The notes under the pieces: model-generated
What the model was told of the DNA's origin: nothing
Database searches by the model: none
The model's input: only the letters and a program-made list of their open reading frames with translations
In this document: piece by piece, positions 5,089 through 63,864 of the stretch
How positions within the stretch are numbered: the stretch's first letter is position 1
How the letters are laid out: each line of letters opens with the position of its first letter
Program-made: the position numbers and the translations under genes
Source: a virus
Length of the DNA stretch: 64,000 nt
Virus record (IMG/VR): IMGVR_UViG_3300050821_002136
Location: 1-64,000 of that record
Reading direction: 5' to 3' (one strand)

Positions 5089-7746
5089 TTAACGTCTCAA
5101 CTGTCTGGGTTGACCCTGGGGTTGCCCGGGAGGTGCCTGGGATTGCGGTTTCTCCCCCTTCAATGCCTCAGGGATTGCTTTTTTCTGAACGGCCTGCTGT
5201 AGTTGTTCCTGATTATGCTGAGCAAAATCTGCAGGCGTTGCATTGATGCTCATTTTAGCAAGAGCCTGAACCGCTACTGCGGCTGGCATCTTAGAAACAT
5301 CAACGCTTATGCTCTCGGAAGGTGGTTTATCCGGTGGTGCATTAGCTGCGGCAATTTTCTTAGCCATAGCTACATGCTCTGTCCAATGCAAATGTACGTT
5401 GGCGAACGCTGCACGCTGTTGAGGAGTACCCCATTTGAATTTCTGGCCCTCTGAGCTGTTCATCCAGCTTAAACATGCCGAAGCTTCTAATGTATGCAGT
5501 TCACTTTCGTCCTGTGCGACCGGGACAGTGCTGACCATTGGGGGAAGCGTGGTCTGTTGCTGTTGTAACTGCTGAACCATGGCTATTTCTTTGGGATCAG
5601 CAGGTATTCCTTGAGCAACCTTGGGTCCCATTTCATCAGCGGCTTGTGCAAGTGTCTGCTGTATTTTAAGGAGCTGAGGATTCGGCATAGGGCCGGATCT
5701 CAAGAGCAACTCAAACTCCGACTTCTGTTTCGTAATAGAAGTTGCGCCAGTGACTTTGAAACCTTTCAAACGCAAACCGTCTTGCAACACAGGAAGATTC
5801 TCGGGAGAGAATATCCACGCTGCTAATGATGGATTAGCATTGCTTGTGTCTACTAAGCCTGTAAGCTTGGCTTCCCTTTGAGCAGAACTCTCGGGGAATG
5901 ACGGATCACTTTCTGGGTAGCAAAGAACATTGCCTGACAAATTGCTCGTGTTTACCGAAATACGTCCAATACCTTTGAACGTTTGTGAAATCTGTTTGCC
6001 TTCTCGGCAATCTGCCGCGCAACCAACTGCTTGTCTTGCGCACTCTGCAAAGAGTGCCTGGATATTGTTCCAAGGACACCCTATACGCTGCAGTGCTTGG
6101 TCCCTCTGTATCTGTGCATTACCTACTGTATTCTCACCAGTCGCCGCGCCAAACAATGATGGCAGTGCGCCACTAATCTCTTCTGAAAGATTAGTAATGA
6201 ACCATTTGATAAAATCAGCTAGAGACGCTTGCGGCTGAGGAGTAGGCTCGACCATGATGTACTGATCCATGGTTGTAAGCCCAGGTTGAGGTAGAAATGA
6301 TCCAGTGCTACCAGGGACATTGTTCTCGCTCTTAAGAACTTGTAGATCAAACGCGTCAGCATTCATCCACTTCTTAGGAACGGTACGTTTGAAGAAGTCA
6401 TCCTGCAGATCCACCCAGTCATTAATTCTTTTCTGAATAGAAATTAAGGAACTACCTAATGCTCTGCGATTTTGTCCTTTGCCTGTGAACGGATGGGCTA
6501 TTGCTAGATGGGCATCCATGCTCTCGTTTCTAGAGAATGCATAGTTAGCTCCGGCCTTTACTAACAAAGCTCCATTAGGAAACTTTTCAAGGAGTTCTGC
6601 GCGGACTGCGTCGTTTACTTTTTCGTCCATGAACATTGAAGGACGAAACCACGTATACTTTACAACCGTATGACGTTGTAGGGAATCTCCAGTTACGTAC
6701 GCTCCAAGCACAGCTTGCCTAGTGTTCTCTCGGGCAATCCTGTCCAATTCAACTTCTGTGTTTCCGTCTGAGCCAGTCCTAATTTTATCGGCAATCCACG
6801 GGAACTTAGCTTTTACAATGGCAACGTCTAGGTCCTCATAGAGCTGCACGAATTGCATGTCTTTGATGTTGTCTACTGCGATGGGTACCTTGTGATCCAA
6901 CTTTCCATGCAAGGTAGTGACTTCTCTTCCTCTGGGTTTCTTAGCAGGCTCAGGGGCTTCTGTGGTTTCTTCTTGCTCCTCGTCCTCTTCAGTCTCCGTG
7001 GGAGATTCTGTCTGTTCTAAGAAGGAGTCTAGGCCTTCTTGGCCTGTGGGTGCATCTTCTGGAGGATTGAGAATATCTTCGGCAGTGACTGGTGCAGTGT
7101 CTCCGTCGTCTCCATCAAACCCGTACAACTGGCCATTAAGCTCATAGCGCGTCCACGCTAACACTCGGTCTTCATTCCAGAAGATACGAGCGCAGTCGGT
7201 CAACAATGCATGTAAATTATTGTTACGCGACCAAATCTCTTTGAACTTGTCTGCTTCTTCTGCCGCAACTATGTCCGGCCCGTACTCTGGGTTGGCGGGA
7301 AAGAACTCTACCTTGGGGACTTCACGAGCAAGTGCGGATACAATGATGTCTCCTTTTGATCCGTACACATTCGTGTCATAGATGGTGTTGTTGTTCTTTT
7401 GAGAATTGGGTCCAAACCCTGAAGCCTGTCCAGGAAGAATCCATCCACCCTGCTTTCCTCTCAGTAGATGCTGATAACCTCTATCAAAGTGCAAAGCTTC
7501 CCAAGTTTGTTCGACTTCGAACCTACGCGCTGCAACGTCTGTCTTTGTGGCGATGATGTCCAGCTGCATAAGTACGCCCTGAGCATCTTCTGTTAAGTCT
7601 GCGAAAGGCTCGGAAGAATGAGGAAACGGGGCATAGACACCTAATGGGCTATCATTAGGAGACTCAGGTTTTACGTATGGCATGGGCATTGACGGAGCAT
7701 TGGTAGTCATGGTGTTTACGTCCTGCCCGGGTCCTTGGTCTGCCAT
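5089..7746 (-). CDS. Portal protein
   Basis: This 885-residue protein has the length, helical content and Pro/Gln-rich tail of the large portal proteins of phages with long packaging modules. It lies just downstream in transcription of the terminase block and upstream of scaffold and capsid. Features include a DWVDLQDDFFKRTVPKKW helix near residue 440, a Glu-rich insertion around 240-270, and a C-terminal Gln/Pro-rich region. Portals form the dodecameric DNA gate of the head. The AGGAAAAATAAC context before the ATG overlaps the end of the previous gene. Confidence 0.75.
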   Translation of the reverse strand: MADQGPGQDVNTMTTNAPSMPMPYVKPESPNDSPLGVYAPFPHSSEPFADLTEDAQGVLMQLDIIATKTDVAARRFEVEQTWEALHFDRGYQHLLRGKQGGWILPGQASGFGPNSQKNNNTIYDTNVYGSKGDIIVSALAREVPKVEFFPANPEYGPDIVAAEEADKFKEIWSRNNNLHALLTDCARIFWNEDRVLAWTRYELNGQLYGFDGDDGDTAPVTAEDILNPPEDAPTGQEGLDSFLEQTESPTETEEDEEQEETTEAPEPAKKPRGREVTTLHGKLDHKVPIAVDNIKDMQFVQLYEDLDVAIVKAKFPWIADKIRTGSDGNTEVELDRIARENTRQAVLGAYVTGDSLQRHTVVKYTWFRPSMFMDEKVNDAVRAELLEKFPNGALLVKAGANYAFSRNESMDAHLAIAHPFTGKGQNRRALGSSLISIQKRINDWVDLQDDFFKRTVPKKWMNADAFDLQVLKSENNVPGSTGSFLPQPGLTTMDQYIMVEPTPQPQASLADFIKWFITNLSEEISGALPSLFGAATGENTVGNAQIQRDQALQRIGCPWNNIQALFAECARQAVGCAADCREGKQISQTFKGIGRISVNTSNLSGNVLCYPESDPSFPESSAQREAKLTGLVDTSNANPSLAAWIFSPENLPVLQDGLRLKGFKVTGATSITKQKSEFELLLRSGPMPNPQLLKIQQTLAQAADEMGPKVAQGIPADPKEIAMVQQLQQQQTTLPPMVSTVPVAQDESELHTLEASACLSWMNSSEGQKFKWGTPQQRAAFANVHLHWTEHVAMAKKIAAANAPPDKPPSESISVDVSKMPAAVAVQALAKMSINATPADFAQHNQEQLQQAVQKKAIPEALKGEKPQSQAPPGQPQGQPRQLRR

Positions 7747-13312: not shown

Positions 13313-13413
13313 TTTCTGCGCTCCTAAAATTATTGCCTCAGCCCCTCACGGGCCGCTTGGGCGTCGGGTCAGTTGTCACACGAAGTGACCAACGCACTGA
13401 CGGGCGAACTTGG

Positions 13414-13486
<73 letters not shown>

Positions 13487-13494
13487 AAAATTGG

Positions 13495-13565
13495 TGGACC
13501 GTGAGAGAGTTGAACTCTCGTTTGAAGCTTGCAAAGCTACTGTCCTCCCACTAGACGAACAGCCC
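13495..13565 (-). tRNA. tRNA-Ala (TGC)
   Basis: The acceptor is GGGCTGT/ACGGTCC and includes the G3-U70 pair that specifies alanine. The anticodon loop is TTTGCAA and the T stem GAGAG/CTCTC. CCA is encoded at 13492-13494. The variable loop is short (4 bases) and the anticodon stem has one T-T mismatch. Confidence 0.9.
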
Positions 13566-13787
13566 ACATAAACTTGGATATTTCATTTCTTCGAAGAGGG
13601 AATGAAAATGCCTAAAGACCCTATTGTCGCCACATTCAGCTCTACGTATGGAGCAGGCACGCGACCGGCCTTTAGACGGCGTCGAATTCCGTAGCCTCAC
13701 CATCACCTCGGACGAGGGGTGAGTCTTTACTCGGCACGGGCTTATCAAGCCCTCACGGTCGCGTAGCGCCCATGGCCGAATCTTTGG
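13566..13787 (-). other. Structured spacer between tRNA-Ala and tRNA-Thr
   Basis: These 222 bases contain no convincing gene. On the minus strand several hairpins can form: GGGC/GCCC around TTGATAA, CCTC/GAGG, ACGG/CCGT, GCTC/GAGC, and TTTCATT/AATGAAA. ACGCGACC can also pair at a distance with GGTCGCGT. None of the arrangements gives a full tRNA. It may belong to the same structured RNA as 13,864-14,283, or be decayed tRNA genes. Confidence 0.4.
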
Positions 13788-13860
13788 AGCCCCTGGATGG
13801 GATTTAACCACCGGCCTCAACCGTACAAAGGGTGCGCTCTGTCTACTGAGCTACAAGGGC
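13788..13860 (-). tRNA. tRNA-Thr (TGT)
   Basis: The acceptor GCCCTTG/CAGGGGC, D stem GCTC/GAGC, anticodon loop TTTGTAC and T stem GGTGG/CCATC form. The discriminator is T, as expected for bacterial or phage Thr variants. CCA is encoded at 13785-13787. Confidence 0.92.
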
Positions 13861-23420: not shown

Positions 23421-23440
23421 AGTTCTCCTTTGAAGTTTGG

Positions 23441-23512
23441 TGGGCAATGCAGGACTCGAACCTGCGACATCCTGCGTGTAAGGCAGGCGCTCTGCCGCTG
23501 AGCTAATTGCCC
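23441..23512 (-). tRNA. tRNA-Val (TAC)
   Basis: The acceptor GGGCAAT/ATTGCCC, D stem GCTC/GAGC, anticodon stem CCTGC/GCAGG around CTTACAC, and T stem GCAGG/CCTGC are all perfect. CCA is encoded at 23438-23440. The 5' end overlaps the stop of the upstream protein gene. Confidence 0.96.
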
Positions 23513-23868
23513 GTTATACTTCTCGCTTGTTTTGGACTAAGAGCAACAAGCTCCCATGCGCCGTCAAGAAACATCATTACCTTTGCTGGAGATTCGCTGA
23601 TGTCAATTACCTGTCCATCCTCGATCCATCCGTGAAAGCATGGGTATTGAATTGACGGAGAGACTGTAAGTTCATCAACAAATTTTCCCTCACGTTTCCA
23701 TAGAGGTTTTTGCCAAGGAGCGGGATTGTACCCATCCAGAGGGTTTTCAAAGTATACACACAGCCGATGGTTTGGTCCACACTTTGGACAGTCTAAGGTC
23801 ATTCCTTCTCCACTGTCGGGACGAAGTAGTCCACAAAATTTAGGATTTAAATTAATCAATGGAAGCAT
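23503..23868 (-). CDS. DUF6527-like protein
   Basis: The 121-residue protein has CPKCGPNHRLCVYF near residue 27, LTVSPSIQYPC near 68, and FHGWIEDGQVID near 78. This layout of Cys/His and a WI-DG-V strand resembles DUF6527. The function is unknown. Its last codons (GGC AAT TAG) are also the first bases of tRNA-Val, so message and tRNA share ten bases. Confidence 0.75.
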   Translation of the reverse strand: MLPLINLNPKFCGLLRPDSGEGMTLDCPKCGPNHRLCVYFENPLDGYNPAPWQKPLWKREGKFVDELTVSPSIQYPCFHGWIEDGQVIDISESPAKVMMFLDGAWELVALSPKQARSITGN

Positions 23869-23890
23869 TGCTCTCTCCTTTGAAATTTGG

Positions 23891-23963
23891 TTGGCGCGGC
23901 AGGCTTCGAACCTGCGACCTCTCGGTTATCATCCGAGGGCTCTACCAATTGAGCTACGCGCCA
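23891..23963 (-). tRNA. tRNA-Ile (GAT)
   Basis: The acceptor TGGCGCG/CGCGCCA, D stem GCTC/GAGC, anticodon stem CTCGG/CCGAG around ATGATAA, and T stem GCAGG/CCTGC form. CCA is encoded at 23888-23890. Confidence 0.96.
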
Positions 23964-42689: not shown

Positions 42690-43633
42690 GCGATGCACTG
42701 GTAGTACTGAACAACAACACAGCTATAATGTCTGGGGGCGTAGGTCTCGGCTCCTCGATTTTCAAAGCACGCCCTAGCTTTCTGGAACTGGTCCATAAGA
42801 GCAGCCGTCAAGAGAATGTGGTGCCCGGGGAATTCCGAGTGTTGTCAACGAATGAGCACCTGGGCAAGACCATTCGCGCAGTGCTCTTGGCCGTACCTCA
42901 GCCACGTCGTGAGTGGTACCGTGATCCCACCGTGTTCTCTAAGGACAACAAGGCATGCTTCTCGCTGGACGGCATTCGTCCACATGACCGTGCAGCTGAC
43001 CCTCAGGCCATGTACTGCGCAAAGTGCCCCAAGGGAGACATCAACTGGAACACATGGCGCAAGACGAAGGACCCCAAGGATCTCCCTCCGTGCGGTGCGT
43101 ATTGGCACTTGTTACTCGCTGATCGTGCAACACAGACGCCTTACTACCTCGACATCAAGGGCACAAGCGCTTCGCCCTTCAAGCAAGCCATGGAAACTCA
43201 GATGTCCGGCCTGCTTGCGAAGTTGATGGCCAATGTACGTGCTGAGAATAAGCAGCGCGGATATTCGCTAGTGACTCTGCAAAATCAGGAAACCGGAGAG
43301 CAGTTCCAAGAGTTCCGTACGACGCCTGGGTTTACTGTGCCAGAAACTGGGCAGCTCCCAATCTTGCCGATGCCGAACATCTTTGACATCAGCTTCGATA
43401 TCTACGCTGCAAGCAAAGATGGTGGACCGTACGTCATGGGCTTCAAGAACTTTGCTCTAATGAAGCCTGAGGACAAAGCTGAGTTTGGTCAGTTGTACCT
43501 CGACCTGATGCAGCAACGCGCAGAAGCACAGCAAGTGCAGCAGAACGACGAAGCCGAGGTAGATGCGGCAGTGGCCGAAGCCCCTGCTCAGCAAGCCAAG
43601 GGTGGTGAAGTTCTGCCGCCAATCACAATCTAA
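42686..43633 (+). CDS. Candidate ssDNA-binding or annealing protein
   Basis: The 315-residue protein has a basic beta-rich core with a Cys cluster CAKCPKGDINW near residue 112 and PPCGAYWHL near 134, which could be a zinc site. A Gln/Glu/Ala-rich acidic linker leads to the tip LPPITI. This layout, with an acidic tail and a Zn insertion next to a nuclease gene, suggests a replication or recombination ssDNA-binding protein. No OB fold can be confirmed by eye. Confidence 0.55.
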   Translation: MSDALVVLNNNTAIMSGGVGLGSSIFKARPSFLELVHKSSRQENVVPGEFRVLSTNEHLGKTIRAVLLAVPQPRREWYRDPTVFSKDNKACFSLDGIRPHDRAADPQAMYCAKCPKGDINWNTWRKTKDPKDLPPCGAYWHLLLADRATQTPYYLDIKGTSASPFKQAMETQMSGLLAKLMANVRAENKQRGYSLVTLQNQETGEQFQEFRTTPGFTVPETGQLPILPMPNIFDISFDIYAASKDGGPYVMGFKNFALMKPEDKAEFGQLYLDLMQQRAEAQQVQQNDEAEVDAAVAEAPAQQAKGGEVLPPITI

Positions 43634-43646
43634 AAAGGAGAAAATA

Positions 43647-43868
43647 ATGTTGAAAATAGAACTCAACGGGGAAAGGAACTATGAGCTTGCTAAGTTGTCA
43701 GCCAAGCTTATCGACGGAGACTTAGTGATCACTGACGAAACCGCTGGTTGGTCTCTGGTTGCTTTGCGTATCGTGGACAATAAGATCAACCTTGTGCGCT
43801 ACAACAGCATCGCTGATAAGAATTACAACACAGACAAACAGGGCAGGCTTGTAGAAGTGCCCGAGTAG
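43647..43868 (+). CDS. Hypothetical 73-residue beta protein
   Basis: The start at 43647 (MLKIELNGERNYELAKLSAK) follows AAAAGGAG. Alternating strands predict a small beta sheet. It ends two bases before the first helix of the tmRNA gene. Confidence 0.65.
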   Translation: MLKIELNGERNYELAKLSAKLIDGDLVITDETAGWSLVALRIVDNKINLVRYNSIADKNYNTDKQGRLVEVPE

Positions 43869-43870
43869 GT

Positions 43871-44294
43871 CGTCGCGGCGACGTTAAGCCGATGGTGGAG
43901 GCGTGCGGTTCTACAGGGGGAGGGCTTAGCGGCCCTGGTGGAAATCTGAGCACTAAGGTGAGGCAAAGATGAAATCTCAGATATGAACTCCCTTCCCCTG
44001 TAGGGCCGTACGCCCCGTAAGTTATGGATGTATGAAGCTGAGGTACGAGTTGCAAGACCCGGTTTCGATACCGGCAGGTCCACCACAACGCTTCAGGTAT
44101 AACGGCATTACCGGCGTACACCCGGAGAGCGGGTCTCGCTGAAGCGTTTTGATGGGCCTGAAAGGTTTCGATTGCGACTACGAGACAGCAGTGGACATCC
44201 CGAGATGACGTGGCCCTCGTTAAAAGGACACGTAACAACCAACCGCGACTGAAAAGCCGATGGTTATGGCAGCTGCCGCAGGGCGCTAGCCATA
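43871..44294 (+). ncRNA. ssrA: Circularly permuted two-piece tmRNA
   Basis: Acceptor piece, 43,871-44,085: it ends CAGGTCC-A-CCA (44075-44085), preceded by a T arm CCGGT/ACCGG with a TTCGAT loop. A 68-base intervening hairpin (CGCTTCAG/CTGAAGCG) follows. The coding piece starts GGGCCTG (44154-44160), pairing with CAGGTCC including G3-U70, then the conserved AAAGGTTTCGA. Helix P2: TTGCGACT (44172) with AGTTGCAA (44048), then CAGC/GCTG. PK1: CGAG/CTCG (44201/44216) and ACGTGGCC/GGACACGT (44208/44226). The resume codon GCG (44245) lies 11 bases downstream; the frame reads ATEKPMVMAAAAGR, then TAG. The acceptor piece also has a 14-bp plus 9-bp long helix (43,900-44,014). The exact processed ends are not visible. 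Confidence 0.9.
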
Positions 44295-44330
44295 GGGTGG
44301 GCAGGGTCAAACCTGCCCTACCGATTTTAG
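44295..44330 (+). terminator. tmRNA terminator
   Basis: GGGCAGG (44299-44305) pairs with CCTGCCC (44312-44318) around GTCAAA, with an outer GG/CC, and GATTTTAG follows. It lies six bases after the tag stop codon and should end the tmRNA precursor. Confidence 0.75.
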
Positions 44331-44368
44331 ATTCAGATGTACAAACCCAAACAGGAGAAACAACATCA

Positions 44369-44899
44369 ATGAAGTACCTTAGCTCCATCTTAGCAATTCT
44401 CGTTCTTTCCATTGCGGCCTTTTCTCAGGATTACCCAGTAGGCCCGAACGTAGGCAAGGCAACCACGCCGTACGCAACCACCAACTTCTCGGCCACATTC
44501 GACGGCCCAGTGACTGCAATGTTGCCAACGAGGAATGGCGAGAACACCAGCACCGATTACAAGTACGTTTCTCAGAACGGCAAAGTTGCAGAAGCAGTCA
44601 CGGTTCGCTTTATTGACCATGACATTGCTGTGGACTATACGTCCTCCGACTTCTACGCCAACGACGACCGCACGGGCGGCACGGTAGACACGGCTAACAC
44701 CAGTCATGATTCGTGGAATGGTGCGCCGTTCACTTATACGTACCGTACCTTTACGCTCGATGGTGTGATACTGACCAAGCGTACTCGTTACATCATCGTG
44801 AATGCTCGTGAGGCCATCTTCATTCAGCAAATCACGGCTGTTGGATATGAAGATCGGCCGGAATGGCTGGACTTCGAGTACTCGTTACGCATCAAGTGA
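44369..44899 (+). CDS. Secreted protein with signal peptide, 176 residues
   Basis: The ATG at 44369 follows AACAGGAG. A signal peptide (MKYLSSILAILVLSIAAFS) is followed by a beta-rich domain with no recognised motif (YPVGPNVGKATTPYATTNF onward). It is exported by the host and may act at the envelope or outside the cell. It ends before a strong terminator. Confidence 0.7.
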   Translation: MKYLSSILAILVLSIAAFSQDYPVGPNVGKATTPYATTNFSATFDGPVTAMLPTRNGENTSTDYKYVSQNGKVAEAVTVRFIDHDIAVDYTSSDFYANDDRTGGTVDTANTSHDSWNGAPFTYTYRTFTLDGVILTKRTRYIIVNAREAIFIQQITAVGYEDRPEWLDFEYSLRIK

Positions 44900-53301: not shown

Positions 53302-53667
53302 ATGCCTTGGCCTATAAAGCACGGACTTGCTTTCCATCCACTCTACCGTGTATGGATGTCCGTAAAGCAAAAGTGCACTAACCCAAAAAGCCTTGTTTAT
53401 AAAGACTACGGTGGGCGCGGCATTAAAATGCACAAACCTTGGGAAAGAGACGTACGTCGGTTTGTGCACTACGTTATGGAAAACCTAGGAGAACGCCCTT
53501 CAAAACGGCACTCTTTGGATCGTAGAAATAACAATGGTCATTACGTGCCTGGAAACATAAGATGGGCAACATGGGAAGAACAAGCTAGAAATCGAAGACC
53601 CGTTCGTTGCTTGGGAAACTACTCTGATGCAGAGCTACTACAAGAAATAAAGAAACGAGGAATATGA
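53302..53667 (+). CDS. HNH endonuclease, mobile type (copy 2)
   Basis: This 121-residue paralogue of the gene at 26,252 has FHPLYRVWMSVKQKCTNPKS, YGGRGI, and SLDRRNNNGHYVPGNIRWAT near 75-95, with an added C-terminal tail (YSDAELLQEIKKRG). It lies just before the RNA ligase and overlaps it by 4 bases. A free-standing homing-type HNH nuclease is likely. Confidence 0.82.
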   Translation: MPWPIKHGLAFHPLYRVWMSVKQKCTNPKSLVYKDYGGRGIKMHKPWERDVRRFVHYVMENLGERPSKRHSLDRRNNNGHYVPGNIRWATWEEQARNRRPVRCLGNYSDAELLQEIKKRGI

Positions 53668-54785
53668 AAAAGGCCAATCACCAAGCAAACGTTGTAAGGA
53701 TTGCGGAAGTATTACCACACTCTAATGCCGACAGCTTGGAAATCATACACATCGGCGCATTCCAAGTAGTGACCAAGAAGGGCAACTTCAAAACTGGGGA
53801 TCTCGGTGTCTACATTCAGCCTGACAGCGTCGTACCTCAGACTGAGCCCTTCAAGTTCATTTGGGAAACCTATGTAGGCTTGGATGGTACTGTGCCTGAG
53901 AAACGCAGGCGCATCACCGTAAAGCGTTTGCGAAAGGAGTGGAGCGAAGGATTGCTCATGCCTCTCTCTGACTTCCCTGAGCTTTCTGTGTTCAATCTAC
54001 CTGAAGGCGCAGATGTCTCAGAACTCCTGGGCATCACTCACTATGACCCAGACAAAGGCAAGGAACCTGCTGCGGACAACGAGACCTTCAAGAAGAAGCG
54101 TAGCAAGTACCCAAGGAGTCTCAAGGGATGGTGGTATCTCATCCTGCACAAGCTGGGCATTTACACCAGCGGTGGGCAGAACCATGGGTTCGACAATGAG
54201 GAGGGAACAGACATGCCCGTGTTCGACGTAGATGCGTTCAAGCACTACAAGAACGCATTCGAACGTGAGGAGCTGGTAGAGGTAACTGAGAAGATCCATG
54301 GGAGCAATGCACGCTTCGTGTTCCGAGAGGGACACATGTACGCAGGGTCACGAACTCAGTGGAAAGCTGAGAACGCCAATTGTATCTGGCGCAATGTGCT
54401 CAGGGCTCAGCCATGGATTGAAGCATGGTGCCGTACGCATGAGGGCTATGGGCTCTACGGTGAGGTCACTCCCACCCAGGGTGAGAATTTTCAATATGGA
54501 AGCGCTGAACCTCAGTTCTTCCCATTTGACATTAGGACCCCTGAGGGAACTTGGCTGGAAGAAATAGAAACCGGACCAGCACAATGGGTACCCGTGCTAT
54601 ACCAAGGTCCGTTCTACTGGGAAGAAATCAGTAAGTTGGTTGACGGACAGACCGCTGTGCCAAATGCTAAGGGCATCCGAGAAGGCATAGTGATTCGTCC
54701 AGTGAAAGAACGGCATGTACGCGGCCTCGGCCGATTAATTCTCAAATGTGTCTCAAATTCGTACCTCGAAAAGGATGGAAAATAA
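53664..54785 (+). CDS. RNA ligase, Rnl2/DRB0094-like
   Basis: The nucleotidyl-accepting Lys is K210 in EKIHGSNARF (motif I KxxG). GLYGEVTP near 267 gives motif IIIa-like residues, EGIVIRPVKE near 338 gives motif IV, and RLILKCVS near 357 motif V. The first 130 residues form an N-terminal OB-like domain as in the DRB0094 group. The 373-residue protein seals RNA nicks or tRNA breaks. The HAD phosphatase at 20,701 could prepare its ends. Confidence 0.88.
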   Translation: MKKANHQANVVRIAEVLPHSNADSLEIIHIGAFQVVTKKGNFKTGDLGVYIQPDSVVPQTEPFKFIWETYVGLDGTVPEKRRRITVKRLRKEWSEGLLMPLSDFPELSVFNLPEGADVSELLGITHYDPDKGKEPAADNETFKKKRSKYPRSLKGWWYLILHKLGIYTSGGQNHGFDNEEGTDMPVFDVDAFKHYKNAFEREELVEVTEKIHGSNARFVFREGHMYAGSRTQWKAENANCIWRNVLRAQPWIEAWCRTHEGYGLYGEVTPTQGENFQYGSAEPQFFPFDIRTPEGTWLEEIETGPAQWVPVLYQGPFYWEEISKLVDGQTAVPNAKGIREGIVIRPVKERHVRGLGRLILKCVSNSYLEKDGK

Positions 54786-60833: not shown

Positions 60834-61127
60834 ATGCTAGACGGAGAGAAGATCAATCACGCACTCAAGACGGGTACCATGGATGACATGGGCACACGCA
60901 TGGAGCACCTAACACAGCTCTATGAGCTTTGGAAGACTGGGCTGGATGTCATAGAACGCTTCGATAAGAACAGTCCTTTCTACGAAGAAAGGAAGCAAGA
61001 ACTTGAAAGTGCCTTGAAGTTGCTGGCTTATCATTTTGAGAAGGACTACTCAGAAAATTCCTACAGGCAAGCGGTAGATACCCTTCCTGCAAACGCAGAG
61101 GACTTCAAGGACCCGGAGAAATCATAA
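60834..61127 (+). CDS. Hypothetical 97-residue helical protein
   Basis: It begins MLDGEKINHALKTGTMDDMG after AGAAAGGAAAA and is helical and acidic. It ends in the TAATG start of the AAA+ gene, so it may be an adaptor or partner of that protein; this is inference. Confidence 0.6.
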   Translation: MLDGEKINHALKTGTMDDMGTRMEHLTQLYELWKTGLDVIERFDKNSPFYEERKQELESALKLLAYHFEKDYSENSYRQAVDTLPANAEDFKDPEKS

Positions 61128-62149
61128 TGAGCACAGCTGGAACGCAGCGCAAACTCGACATCACGCAGAGCAGCAAGCTTTATGCACAACTAGCCAAGGA
61201 CTTCTCAGCTAAGATCGTAGGCCAAGAGGAAGCTACTCAGGCCCTTCTGAATATTGTTGAGTCCCACCAAGCAGGCTTCTCGGATGCCAGCCACCCCGCT
61301 GGCGTAGCTCTGTTCCTCGGTCCAACAGGCACTGGCAAGACGCTAGTGGCTGAGACCCTGGCCGCATCCTTACTTGGTAGCAAGCTCGCCTGCCTGCGTA
61401 TTGACTGCGCTGAGTACCAGCACGGACATGAGATCGCCAAATTAGTGGGATCTCCCCCGGGATACTTGGGCCATCGTGAGACGCACCCGCTGCTGACACA
61501 GGAAGCACTTAACCAGTGGCACACGGACAAGATGAAGCTTTCCATTCTTCTCTTCGACGAGATCGAGAAGGCCAGTGATACGCTCTGGGCTTTGCTACTA
61601 GGCATCCTCGATAATGCTACGGTGACCTTAGGAGACAACCGCAAGGTTAACTTTAGCAATGTGATCATTGTCATGACAAGCAACCTCGGCGCACGTAAGA
61701 TGTCTAGTCGTGACATAGGATTCATGGACCCATCCGAAGAGACTGACAACGCTCGCATGGAGACGCAGGCCAGGAGCGCAGCAAAGAGCAAGTTCTCACC
61801 TGAGTTCATGAATCGTTTGCAGTCCATAGTGGTCTTCAAGACTTTGTCCGAGGAGCAAATTGAGAACATCCTTGAACTTGAATTGAAGGCGCTAGAGTAT
61901 CGCTTGTTCATGGTCAGCAAACCGTTCTTCACCATAGCCGTATCACCTAAAGCCAAACGTACGTTGCTGGCTGAGGGCTACGACAAGGCCTACGGTGCGC
62001 GGTATCTCAAACGCACTATCGAGAGACGCATACAGCAGCCGCTGGCAAGACTAGCAGCCAGTGGGCAAGTAGCAGAGCACGACAAAATCATCATTGATGA
62101 CCTCGGAGACAAGAGCTTCGAGTTCTACGTACAGGGGAGAAACTTATGA
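61127..62149 (+). CDS. Clp-type AAA+ unfoldase (ClpA/ClpB D2-like)
   Basis: The 340-residue protein is a single AAA+ module. Walker A is GPTGTGKT (65-72), the pore loop GSPPGYLG (108-115), Walker B LLFDEIEK (141-148), sensor 1 TSNLG (184-188), an arginine finger in FMNRL (R230), and a small domain YGARYLKRTIERRIQQPLAR near 283. The IGF tripeptide (197-199, in RDIGFMDP) is at the place of the ClpP-docking loop of ClpA. N-domain and first AAA+ ring are absent. It probably unfolds proteins, alone or with host ClpP. Confidence 0.88.
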   Translation: MSTAGTQRKLDITQSSKLYAQLAKDFSAKIVGQEEATQALLNIVESHQAGFSDASHPAGVALFLGPTGTGKTLVAETLAASLLGSKLACLRIDCAEYQHGHEIAKLVGSPPGYLGHRETHPLLTQEALNQWHTDKMKLSILLFDEIEKASDTLWALLLGILDNATVTLGDNRKVNFSNVIIVMTSNLGARKMSSRDIGFMDPSEETDNARMETQARSAAKSKFSPEFMNRLQSIVVFKTLSEEQIENILELELKALEYRLFMVSKPFFTIAVSPKAKRTLLAEGYDKAYGARYLKRTIERRIQQPLARLAASGQVAEHDKIIIDDLGDKSFEFYVQGRNL

Positions 62150-63171: not shown

Positions 63172-63864
63172 TTATTCTACAAGTTTTGGTACATACGTAC
63201 GCGCTGCATCGAGGTGCTGAGCATCGAAGTTTAGAGAAAACCCAATGGCACTTGTATCTCCGTTGTCCTCTTCAGCAGAATACGTGACCAAGCCTACAAT
63301 TTCCCCTTTGGTATTGAATATGGCTGAGCCACTATCGCCATGGTCTACTTTCAGAGAATAGCAAGCCTCTCCAGCTGCCACGTCCAATTCGCTGTAGTCG
63401 TCACACTCAAGCACTTTACCGTAACGAGGAATGGCTGGGTACTCTCCTCGGATGTCTCCATAGATGGTGACGGTCTCTCCAACCATTGCGGCTTTGGTCT
63501 TCACTGTTTCGATGTGAGTGAACGGAGACCCGTAAAACAAGTAGATCACATGATCTCGGTTGTCAGTTGCGGAAGCTATGAGGATGTGCTTCTCTGTAGA
63601 GAGATCAAAGGATACCAACGTTCCTTCTCCAGATTCGTTACAATGTTCGGCCGTAAGAAAAGCGTTCGGCCCAATTGCTGTGCTTGTACAATCTCCTAGT
63701 TTCTTTCCCTTCTCATCAAAGAAGGTTACCATGTGGGAAGTACGTTGCTCTGTTGTGGGGGCTGAGTGTTTGTGAGTCTTGAAGTGAGGAACCTCGTGAG
63801 GTCCAAGGAGGAACAACGAGAGAAGTCCCACGGAAAGAAAATAGTAGAAGTCTAAGCGAGTCAT
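63172..63864 (-). CDS. Secreted trypsin-like serine protease
   Basis: A signal peptide or anchor covers residues 5-21. H74 (TAEHC), an Asp at 101 or 104 (DNRDHVIYLF) and S178 (DHGDSGSA) make the chymotrypsin-fold triad; two Cys pairs could form disulfides. The protease would act outside the cytoplasm, on host envelope proteins or on incoming material. It is uncommon in phage. The gene starts at 63864 and opens the leftward block at this end. Confidence 0.82.
   Translation of the reverse strand: MTRLDFYYFLSVGLLSLFLLGPHEVPHFKTHKHSAPTTEQRTSHMVTFFDEKGKKLGDCTSTAIGPNAFLTAEHCNESGEGTLVSFDLSTEKHILIASATDNRDHVIYLFYGSPFTHIETVKTKAAMVGETVTIYGDIRGEYPAIPRYGKVLECDDYSELDVAAGEACYSLKVDHGDSGSAIFNTKGEIVGLVTYSAEEDNGDTSAIGFSLNFDAQHLDAARTYVPKLVE

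Follow-up and report, generated by a model that had tools for sequence, protein, structure and literature searches.

Two kinds of described gene are closest to the locus reported here: the permuted (two-piece) tmRNA genes of bacteria, and the tmRNA genes carried by phages. Phage tmRNA genes of the Bxz1 type are one-piece. Phage-borne tmRNAs are on record for mycobacteriophages Bxz1, Wildcat and others and for Bacillus phage G, all with other hosts (accessible text of PMC4131195), and a 2025 database paper gives 79 unique phage tmRNA sequences (accessible text of PMC11915505). Permuted tmRNAs are known from Alphaproteobacteria, Betaproteobacteria and Cyanobacteria (RF04321; clade models RF01849, RF01850 and RF01851). 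An earlier note on this DNA, made from the sequence alone, had held that a permuted form is rarely or never described in a phage. This is contradicted by the two-piece tmRNA of the OM43 phage Melnitz and by the 53 two-piece forms among 133 unique phage tmRNA structures found by ARAGORN, of which 50 are marine or aquatic (accessible text of PMC9004378). The Melnitz-type genes share with ours a permuted tmRNA borne by a phage; they differ in being marine and in mostly following host lineages with permuted genes, and the accessible text of that paper tells of neither an odd tag end nor a link to an ATPase.

In a literature search, with subscription journals and preprints outside its scope, we found no earlier report joining a permuted tmRNA with Acidobacteriota, and no paper joining a phage-encoded Clp ATPase, ClpP and tmRNA. 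As far as no earlier report was found, the phage group, the probable host phylum, a conserved odd tag end and a six-base T-loop are novel here, while the kind of gene is already known.

The permuted tmRNA gene and its surroundings

The window, i.e., the whole stretch of 64,000 bases that was analyzed, covers positions 1-64,000 of an IMG/VR virus record that is linear and 108,277 bases long. It contains phage genes for the large terminase subunit, DNA polymerase, ribonucleotide reductase, helicase, primase-helicase, RNA ligase and phage lysozyme, and the tmRNA site is a gap of about 500 bases amid small genes. The earlier note had proposed a phage-encoded permuted tmRNA here, to be checked with the Rfam covariance models and with ARAGORN. 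The Rfam model tmRNA_permuted (RF04321) matched positions 44026-44283 on the plus strand with 66.6 bits (E 1.2e-10 when the 64-kb window is searched), above the gathering score of 47, and the match spans model positions 1-213 of 213. No other Rfam tmRNA family scored above its own gathering score at 44026-44283, and the betaproteobacterial clade model reached 35 bits, below its cut-off of 84. ARAGORN called no tmRNA at the locus and no tRNA at the acceptor half. The elements of the gene are as follows:

44026..44085, plus strand: acceptor (3') half (RF04321, helices recounted)
44195-44200 with 44026-44031, plus strand: helix ACATCC/GGATGT, 6/6 pairs, absent from the list in the earlier note
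44172-44179 with 44048-44055, plus strand: P2, TTGCGACT with AGTTGCAA, 8/8 pairs
44186-44189, plus strand: CAGC, pairing with GCTG in the acceptor half, 4/4 pairs
44059-44074, plus strand: T arm, stem CCGGT/ACCGG with 5/5 pairs and six-base loop TTCGAT
44154-44160 with 44075-44081, plus strand: acceptor stem GGGCCTG/CAGGTCC, 7/7 pairs, G3-U70
44082-44085, plus strand: encoded ACCA, recounted on the window letters
44086..44153, plus strand: intervening sequence of 68 bases, predicted to be excised
44087-44096 with 44139-44148, plus strand: 10-bp helix extending the acceptor stem in the precursor
44154..44244, plus strand: start of the coding half, including GGTTTCGA after the acceptor 5' strand (RF04321, helices recounted)
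44201-44233, plus strand: pseudoknot PK1, CGAG/CTCG with 4/4 and ACGTG/CACGT with 5/5 pairs
44234-44244, plus strand: 11-base spacer from PK1 to the GCG codon
44245..44289, plus strand: tag frame ATEKPMVMAAAAGR, with GCG at 44245, 14 sense codons and stop TAG at 44287-44289
44295..44322, plus strand: hairpin 3' of the tag; the related locus L251 has a hairpin in the same place, differing in stem sequence but with an identical flank, CTACCGATTT

The recount bore out the earlier description in all its parts: the acceptor half with encoded CCA lying 5' of the coding half, the seven-base-pair stem with G3-U70, the T arm with TTCGAT, the 8-bp P2, CAGC/GCTG and PK1 with every pair present, and the 11-base gap to GCG, the 14-codon frame and the TAG. 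Taken with the RF04321 score, the relatives with the same locus, the acceptor stems intact in 28/28 loci (see below) and the phage gene content, this comparison of sequences confirms the reading of window positions 44026-44289 as a phage permuted tmRNA gene.

In its gene order, G3-U70 acceptor stem, T arm, P2, PK1, tag frame and intervening sequence, the locus resembles the RF04321 family. Unlike the bacterial genes of that family, it has a six-base T-loop and a tag ending in AAAAGR, and it belongs to a phage, the probable hosts of which use the one-piece form. In place of the seven-base TTCRANN loop the window has TTCGAT; we treat this as a variant and do not use the seven-base loop to define the family. 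The shorter loop might weaken the tRNA-like fold. The region 43860-44350 folds better than 100/100 dinucleotide shuffles, with the z-score of -6.41 being due in part to a separate hairpin at 43900-44014.

This long, imperfect hairpin lies just 5' of the tmRNA. The fold of 43885-44022 has a z-score of -5.27, with 0/200 shuffles as good, and no Rfam family matched 43900-44014 above its gathering score. A scan of window positions 43600-44500 found no promoters or terminators. Comparison of window positions 43400-44700 with phage and plasmid records by blastn gave no match. The record IMGVR_UViG_3300021168_000039 is identical to the window across 1,101 bases; among the loci and records discussed below, L024 is an identical copy of the window locus, and record G002 is the copy of the window. 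The exact acceptor-half pattern was found in one IMG/VR contig, of the same phage, and a search of IMG/VR with the neighboring exonuclease led to the same phage only; for the neighbor protein, a search of genome contigs yielded none that was confirmed. Elsewhere in the window we noted a trypsin-like protease (63172-63864, minus strand), the RNA ligase (53664-54785, plus strand) and, at 13411-13860 and 23438-23963 (both minus strand), five tRNA genes, i.e., Asn, Ala, Thr, Val and Ile.

Related phages with permuted tmRNA

The locus L004 (record G001) has a permuted tmRNA in the same place, with 92.8 bits, an ARAGORN call and the tag AKTNKSRKAYGMFFGGNTVGQLSVAA; its neighbor protein is 51% identical to that of the window in the best segment. 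A blastn search of phages with the L004 tmRNA gave three short T-arm matches only. In L026, where the neighbor protein is 64% identical, the acceptor half and the first coding-half bases are followed by the contig end, and the score of 43.2 bits is below the RF04321 cut-off because the gene is cut; L026 encodes AAAA instead of ACCA. It should be noted that in L026 the small gene is separated from the tmRNA by an HNH-endonuclease-like open frame (by eye, about 6681-7069), at the position of the window's hairpin.

The neighbor protein also leads to the cultured phages Tunturi_4 and Tunturi_3 (31.6% and 30.2%), whose full-length DNA polymerases are 40.9% and 39.7% identical to that of the window. 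These phages (PP885687 and PP885686; PMC11924767), which share the polymerase family, have permuted tmRNAs of 79.2 and 63.3 bits, above the cut-off. Their record tables list no RNA feature, so that the permuted tmRNAs are unannotated, and the word 'tmRNA' is absent from the main text of the Tunturi phage paper (PMC11924767).

A scan with three polymerases gave 52 loci, of which the last four (24-33% identity over short parts) were left out, resulting in 48 related IMG/VR records. A permuted tmRNA above the cut-off was found in 25 of these 48, including the already known G001 and G002, and in 12 of the 14 that are 80 kb or longer. Most of the 23 records with no match are short; G443 and G453 are two long relatives with no RF04321 match, and in G453, which has the same polymerase as the tmRNA-bearing G426, the region may be missing because the record is a fragment. 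ARAGORN called a tmRNA in just 13 of the 23 new loci.

The acceptor stem has 7/7 pairs and G3-U70 in all 28 loci, a set that includes the near-identical L240/L242 and L244-L247, and L024 standing for the window. At stem position 4, all four Watson-Crick pairs occur among the 28. Because both the parser and the model reward pairing, such pair counts lean toward structure, and an exchange control is the fairer figure: there are 13 distinct acceptor stems, each matching its own partner, and when partners are swapped, full pairing results in 12 of 156 combinations. The encoded 3' ends of the 28 loci are ACCA (26), ACCC (1) and AAAA (1). Insert length varies from 11 to 219 bases over 25 loci, the insert and T-loop lists leaving out L163, L253 and L026. 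The six-base TTCGAT loop with a full 5-bp stem is present in the window, L233, L236, L249 and L253, closed by U-A or C-G. L241 and L252 have T-loops lacking TTCGA (GGCGGCA in the former, around AGCATA in the latter) in permuted tmRNAs that are otherwise intact.

Two readings of the ARAGORN results were rejected. The tRNA-Leu called at the L238 acceptor half has a supposed 5' strand with 4/7 pairs and the motif GCATGTAG is present, and Rfam gives a permuted tmRNA and no tRNA. The six-base T-loop alone does not account for the missed calls: 0/5 such loci were called, yet the seven-base L234, L237, L238 and L251 were also missed.

We also observed small RF-1-domain proteins with GGQ in Tunturi_4 (PP885687, 43946-44293) and Tunturi_3 (PP885686, about 82616-82783), i.e., in 2/7 records searched; in Tunturi_4 the protein directly adjoins the tmRNA. 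These are possible peptidyl-tRNA hydrolases.

Control for composite matches

A scan of 396 Acidobacteriota genomes, run with stricter filters at the expense of weak matches, gave RF04321 scores above the cut-off in 13. We rejected the idea that Acidobacteriota have a permuted tmRNA of their own, as 10 of these 13 loci, when inspected, proved to be nine cases of a tRNA-Asp just 5' of a one-piece tmRNA and one tandem of one-piece copies (L170). In the eight composites with stems compared, position 3-70 is G-C, and six or seven of the seven bases pair. The RF04321 score alone is insufficient, because composites reach the same score class, and acceptor pairing by itself likewise cannot exclude a composite. 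The window is distinguished from a composite by its G3-U70, by an acceptor half in which no tRNA was called and by the lack of a second acceptor end 3' of the gene (L024). Of the phage loci tested for a downstream one-piece 3' end, which leaves out L163, L253 and L026, 23/25 have no candidate; the near-identical L240/L242 have a candidate that lacks CCA.

The L170 locus (genome G169) carries tandem one-piece tmRNAs on the minus strand at 1264-1617 and 1696-2028 (155.2 and 110.5 bits), and the match to the permuted model is made up of the first copy's 3' end and the second copy's 5' end. This is the arrangement that one would expect ahead of a circular permutation arising. At L176, a one-piece tmRNA of 158.8 bits is present.

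Probable host

The window phage is a soil phage, as are its relatives, and its host is most likely in Acidobacteriota, as judged from Tunturi_3 and Tunturi_4, which infect Tunturiibacter (Acidobacteriota). All five Terriglobia genomes analyzed have a one-piece tmRNA, with scores from 164 to 198 bits: Edaphobacter lichenicola M8UP30, Granulicella mallensis X5P3, Terriglobus albidus DSM 26559, Acidobacteriaceae KBS 83 and Occallatibacter savannae AB23, with the actual Tunturi_3 and Tunturi_4 hosts outside these five. Their tags are AEPQFALAA, ANNNLALAA or ANDNLALAA. The permuted model gave weak matches in four of the five, all below the cut-off. As the form in use among the probable hosts checked is not the permuted one, the phage gene was probably not simply acquired from the present host.

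Tag peptide

The window tag ATEKPMVMAAAAGR ends in AAAAGR in place of the hydrophobic proteolysis end -(L/V)AA. Record G459 (locus L251) has the tag ATEKPMVMAAACGR, i.e., the window tag except for a single Ala-to-Cys replacement, with the frame conserved; other tags with this type of end are ANDGVIVTAPKAKAMGAAAGR (G421), ANDNIVSAPMKAMGAAAGR (G424), ANDNTVVTPKAKAMGAAAGV (G430) and ANTNVLAMSAAAGA (G450). An AAAG[RVA] or AACGR end is common to six phages, the window phage and five relatives. Across the 15 pairs among these six, the AAAG codons differ at 10/120 first and second positions and at 37/60 third positions, and all 10 of the former are the single Cys. The odd end is not damage: codon changes among the six phages are almost confined to third positions, and G459 has nearly the same tag although its tRNA-like domain and its insert differ strongly from those of the window.

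Other relatives have VAA or LAA ends (L004/G001, G426, G434-G437, G438, G449, Tunturi_4 and Tunturi_3; the two Tunturi tags end in LAA and VAA), VMA or VLA (G442, G452, G454, G439 and G462), MAA (G431 and G433), MAAAA (G447), ATA (G457) and perhaps VKV (G445), with the tag ends of G444 and L026 cut off. Frames were picked by eye where ARAGORN gave no tag. The ARAGORN tag for L244-L247, ending in VGG, was replaced by a frame ending in QLLAA.

A candidate partner ATPase

61127..62149, plus strand: single-ring AAA+ ATPase of 340 aa, resembling the second domain of ClpA/ClpB/ClpC (Pfam), candidate tag partner

This protein has AAA_2 and D2-small domains above the Pfam cut-offs, a GYLG pore loop and an IGF loop, and in AAA_2 plus D2-small, GYLG and the GF loop it is like the second AAA+ domain of ClpA, ClpC and ClpB. 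Unlike these, it forms a predicted single ring, with one AAA+ domain and no N-terminal domain, and is far from the full-length cut-offs of NCBIfam. Its identification as ClpX was rejected in favor of the ClpB/ClpA/ClpC D2-like type.

Among 21 records, a set that leaves out shorter or duplicate tmRNA-bearing ones, an AAA_2 ATPase above the cut-off was found in eight: the six AAAG[RVA]/AACGR phages, G447 (MAAAA) and G014, which has no tmRNA match. It was found in 0/11 records with other tags, of which eight are at least 80 kb and three are shorter, maybe fragments. Tunturi_4 and G443, the latter with no tmRNA, have weak AAA_2 matches below the cut-off; Tunturi_3 and Tunturi_4 thus differ from the window both in their LAA/VAA tags and in having no AAA_2 protein above the cut-off. 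An I/L/F/Y-G-F/Y (GF) loop is present in 8/8 phage ATPases; the profile aligns the ClpC loop there and shows a gap in Thermus thermophilus ClpB. The ClpC loop docks on ClpP, and the phage loop is a candidate for the same role. Phage ClpP was found in 0/3 records, and ATPases of such type are common elsewhere, with 153 records from other phages.

The association of tag end and ATPase is 7/7 versus 0/11 by record, but a quickly built polymerase tree requires three changes for either trait. There are two supported independent pairs, and no pair contradicts the link (p 0.5 by sign test), with G447 on a long branch and coded as not G-ending. We therefore rejected the link as statistically secure, with two to three independent changes; judged from these sequences, the association is suggestive only, and is not significant after phylogeny is taken into account.

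Proposed mechanism and alternative explanations

We consider it very probable that the phage has a working two-piece tmRNA, which would act with host SmpB in rescue and tagging; SmpB itself was found in 0/20 phage records. The precursor would be transcribed with the acceptor half first, host tRNA-processing enzymes would excise the 68-base insert, and the two RNAs would stay joined via the acceptor stem and P2. Alanine would be charged through G3-U70, host SmpB would bring the RNA into stalled ribosomes, the tag ATEKPMVMAAAAGR would be added, and the ribosome would be freed. ClpX reads a C-terminal LAA, and -LAA-tagged products would go to host ClpXP. Since the tag lacks -(L/V)AA, the -AAAGR product of the window phage and the five relatives is probably not destined for host ClpXP.

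Several other explanations have to be considered. It is hardly credible that the window match is an artefact, in which a tRNA 5' of a one-piece tmRNA was misread as permuted: RF04321 does make this error in acidobacterial chromosomes, but the tRNA call and second acceptor end that mark such cases are missing here and in L024, respectively, and position 3-70 is G-U in the phage versus G-C in the eight composites compared. A decaying or chance gene, functionless in the window phage, would be consistent with the lower score (66.6 versus 92.8 bits for L004), the six-base T-loop, the tag without -AA and the missing ARAGORN call. This is very improbable, however, as the acceptor stem, P2, PK1 and tag are intact, and the tag end and the six-base loop recur in relatives. 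The phage RNA could instead bind host SmpB or ribosomes as a decoy and thereby block host trans-translation, an effect shown for an RNA consisting of the tRNA-like domain only, which resembles that of mycobacteriophage DS6A (accessible text of PMC4131195 and PMC11915505). The lack of SmpB in the phage and the shortened T-loop in the window and four relatives are in line with such a role, but the gene retains a complete tag frame, conserved at the protein level, for which a decoy would have no use, and we regard this role as improbable.

The working two-piece tmRNA can be extended further, in a manner compatible with it. The AAAG[RVA] tag would be read by the phage ClpA/ClpC-like ATPase, docked on host ClpP via the GF loop; in a variant, the ATPase would act alone as a refolding machine, and the phage would set the fate of the products of stalled ribosomes. 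This extension is tentative and, on balance, doubtful. It draws on the presence of the ATPase in all six AAAG[RVA]/AACGR records and G447 as opposed to none of the 11 with other tags, and on the GF-type loop at the ClpC loop site in every phage ATPase. Against it stand the few independent changes on the tree, the distance of about 17 kb between the tmRNA and ATPase genes in the window, the G014 ATPase that has no tmRNA match, the frequency of such ATPases in other phages, and the ClpP search, which found none in the phage records. Similarly speculative is the wider proposal of an acidobacteriophage clade with its own branch of trans-translation, in which a permuted tmRNA, as opposed to the one-piece host gene, would write a tag invisible to the host reader of -LAA, and the ATPase, having evolved with this tag, would pass on or refold the tagged products.

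Implications

A ribosome-rescue RNA is a common gene in this group of soil phages, in a form unused by the probable hosts checked. The odd but conserved tag end makes one question testable: is the phage tmRNA kept for freeing ribosomes, for destroying the tagged proteins or for redirecting them? Tunturi_3 and Tunturi_4 are cultured with their hosts, and these systems allow a direct search for the RNA ends and for tagged proteins. If the tag is indeed read by the phage ATPase, the phage itself would decide the fate of proteins from stalled ribosomes.
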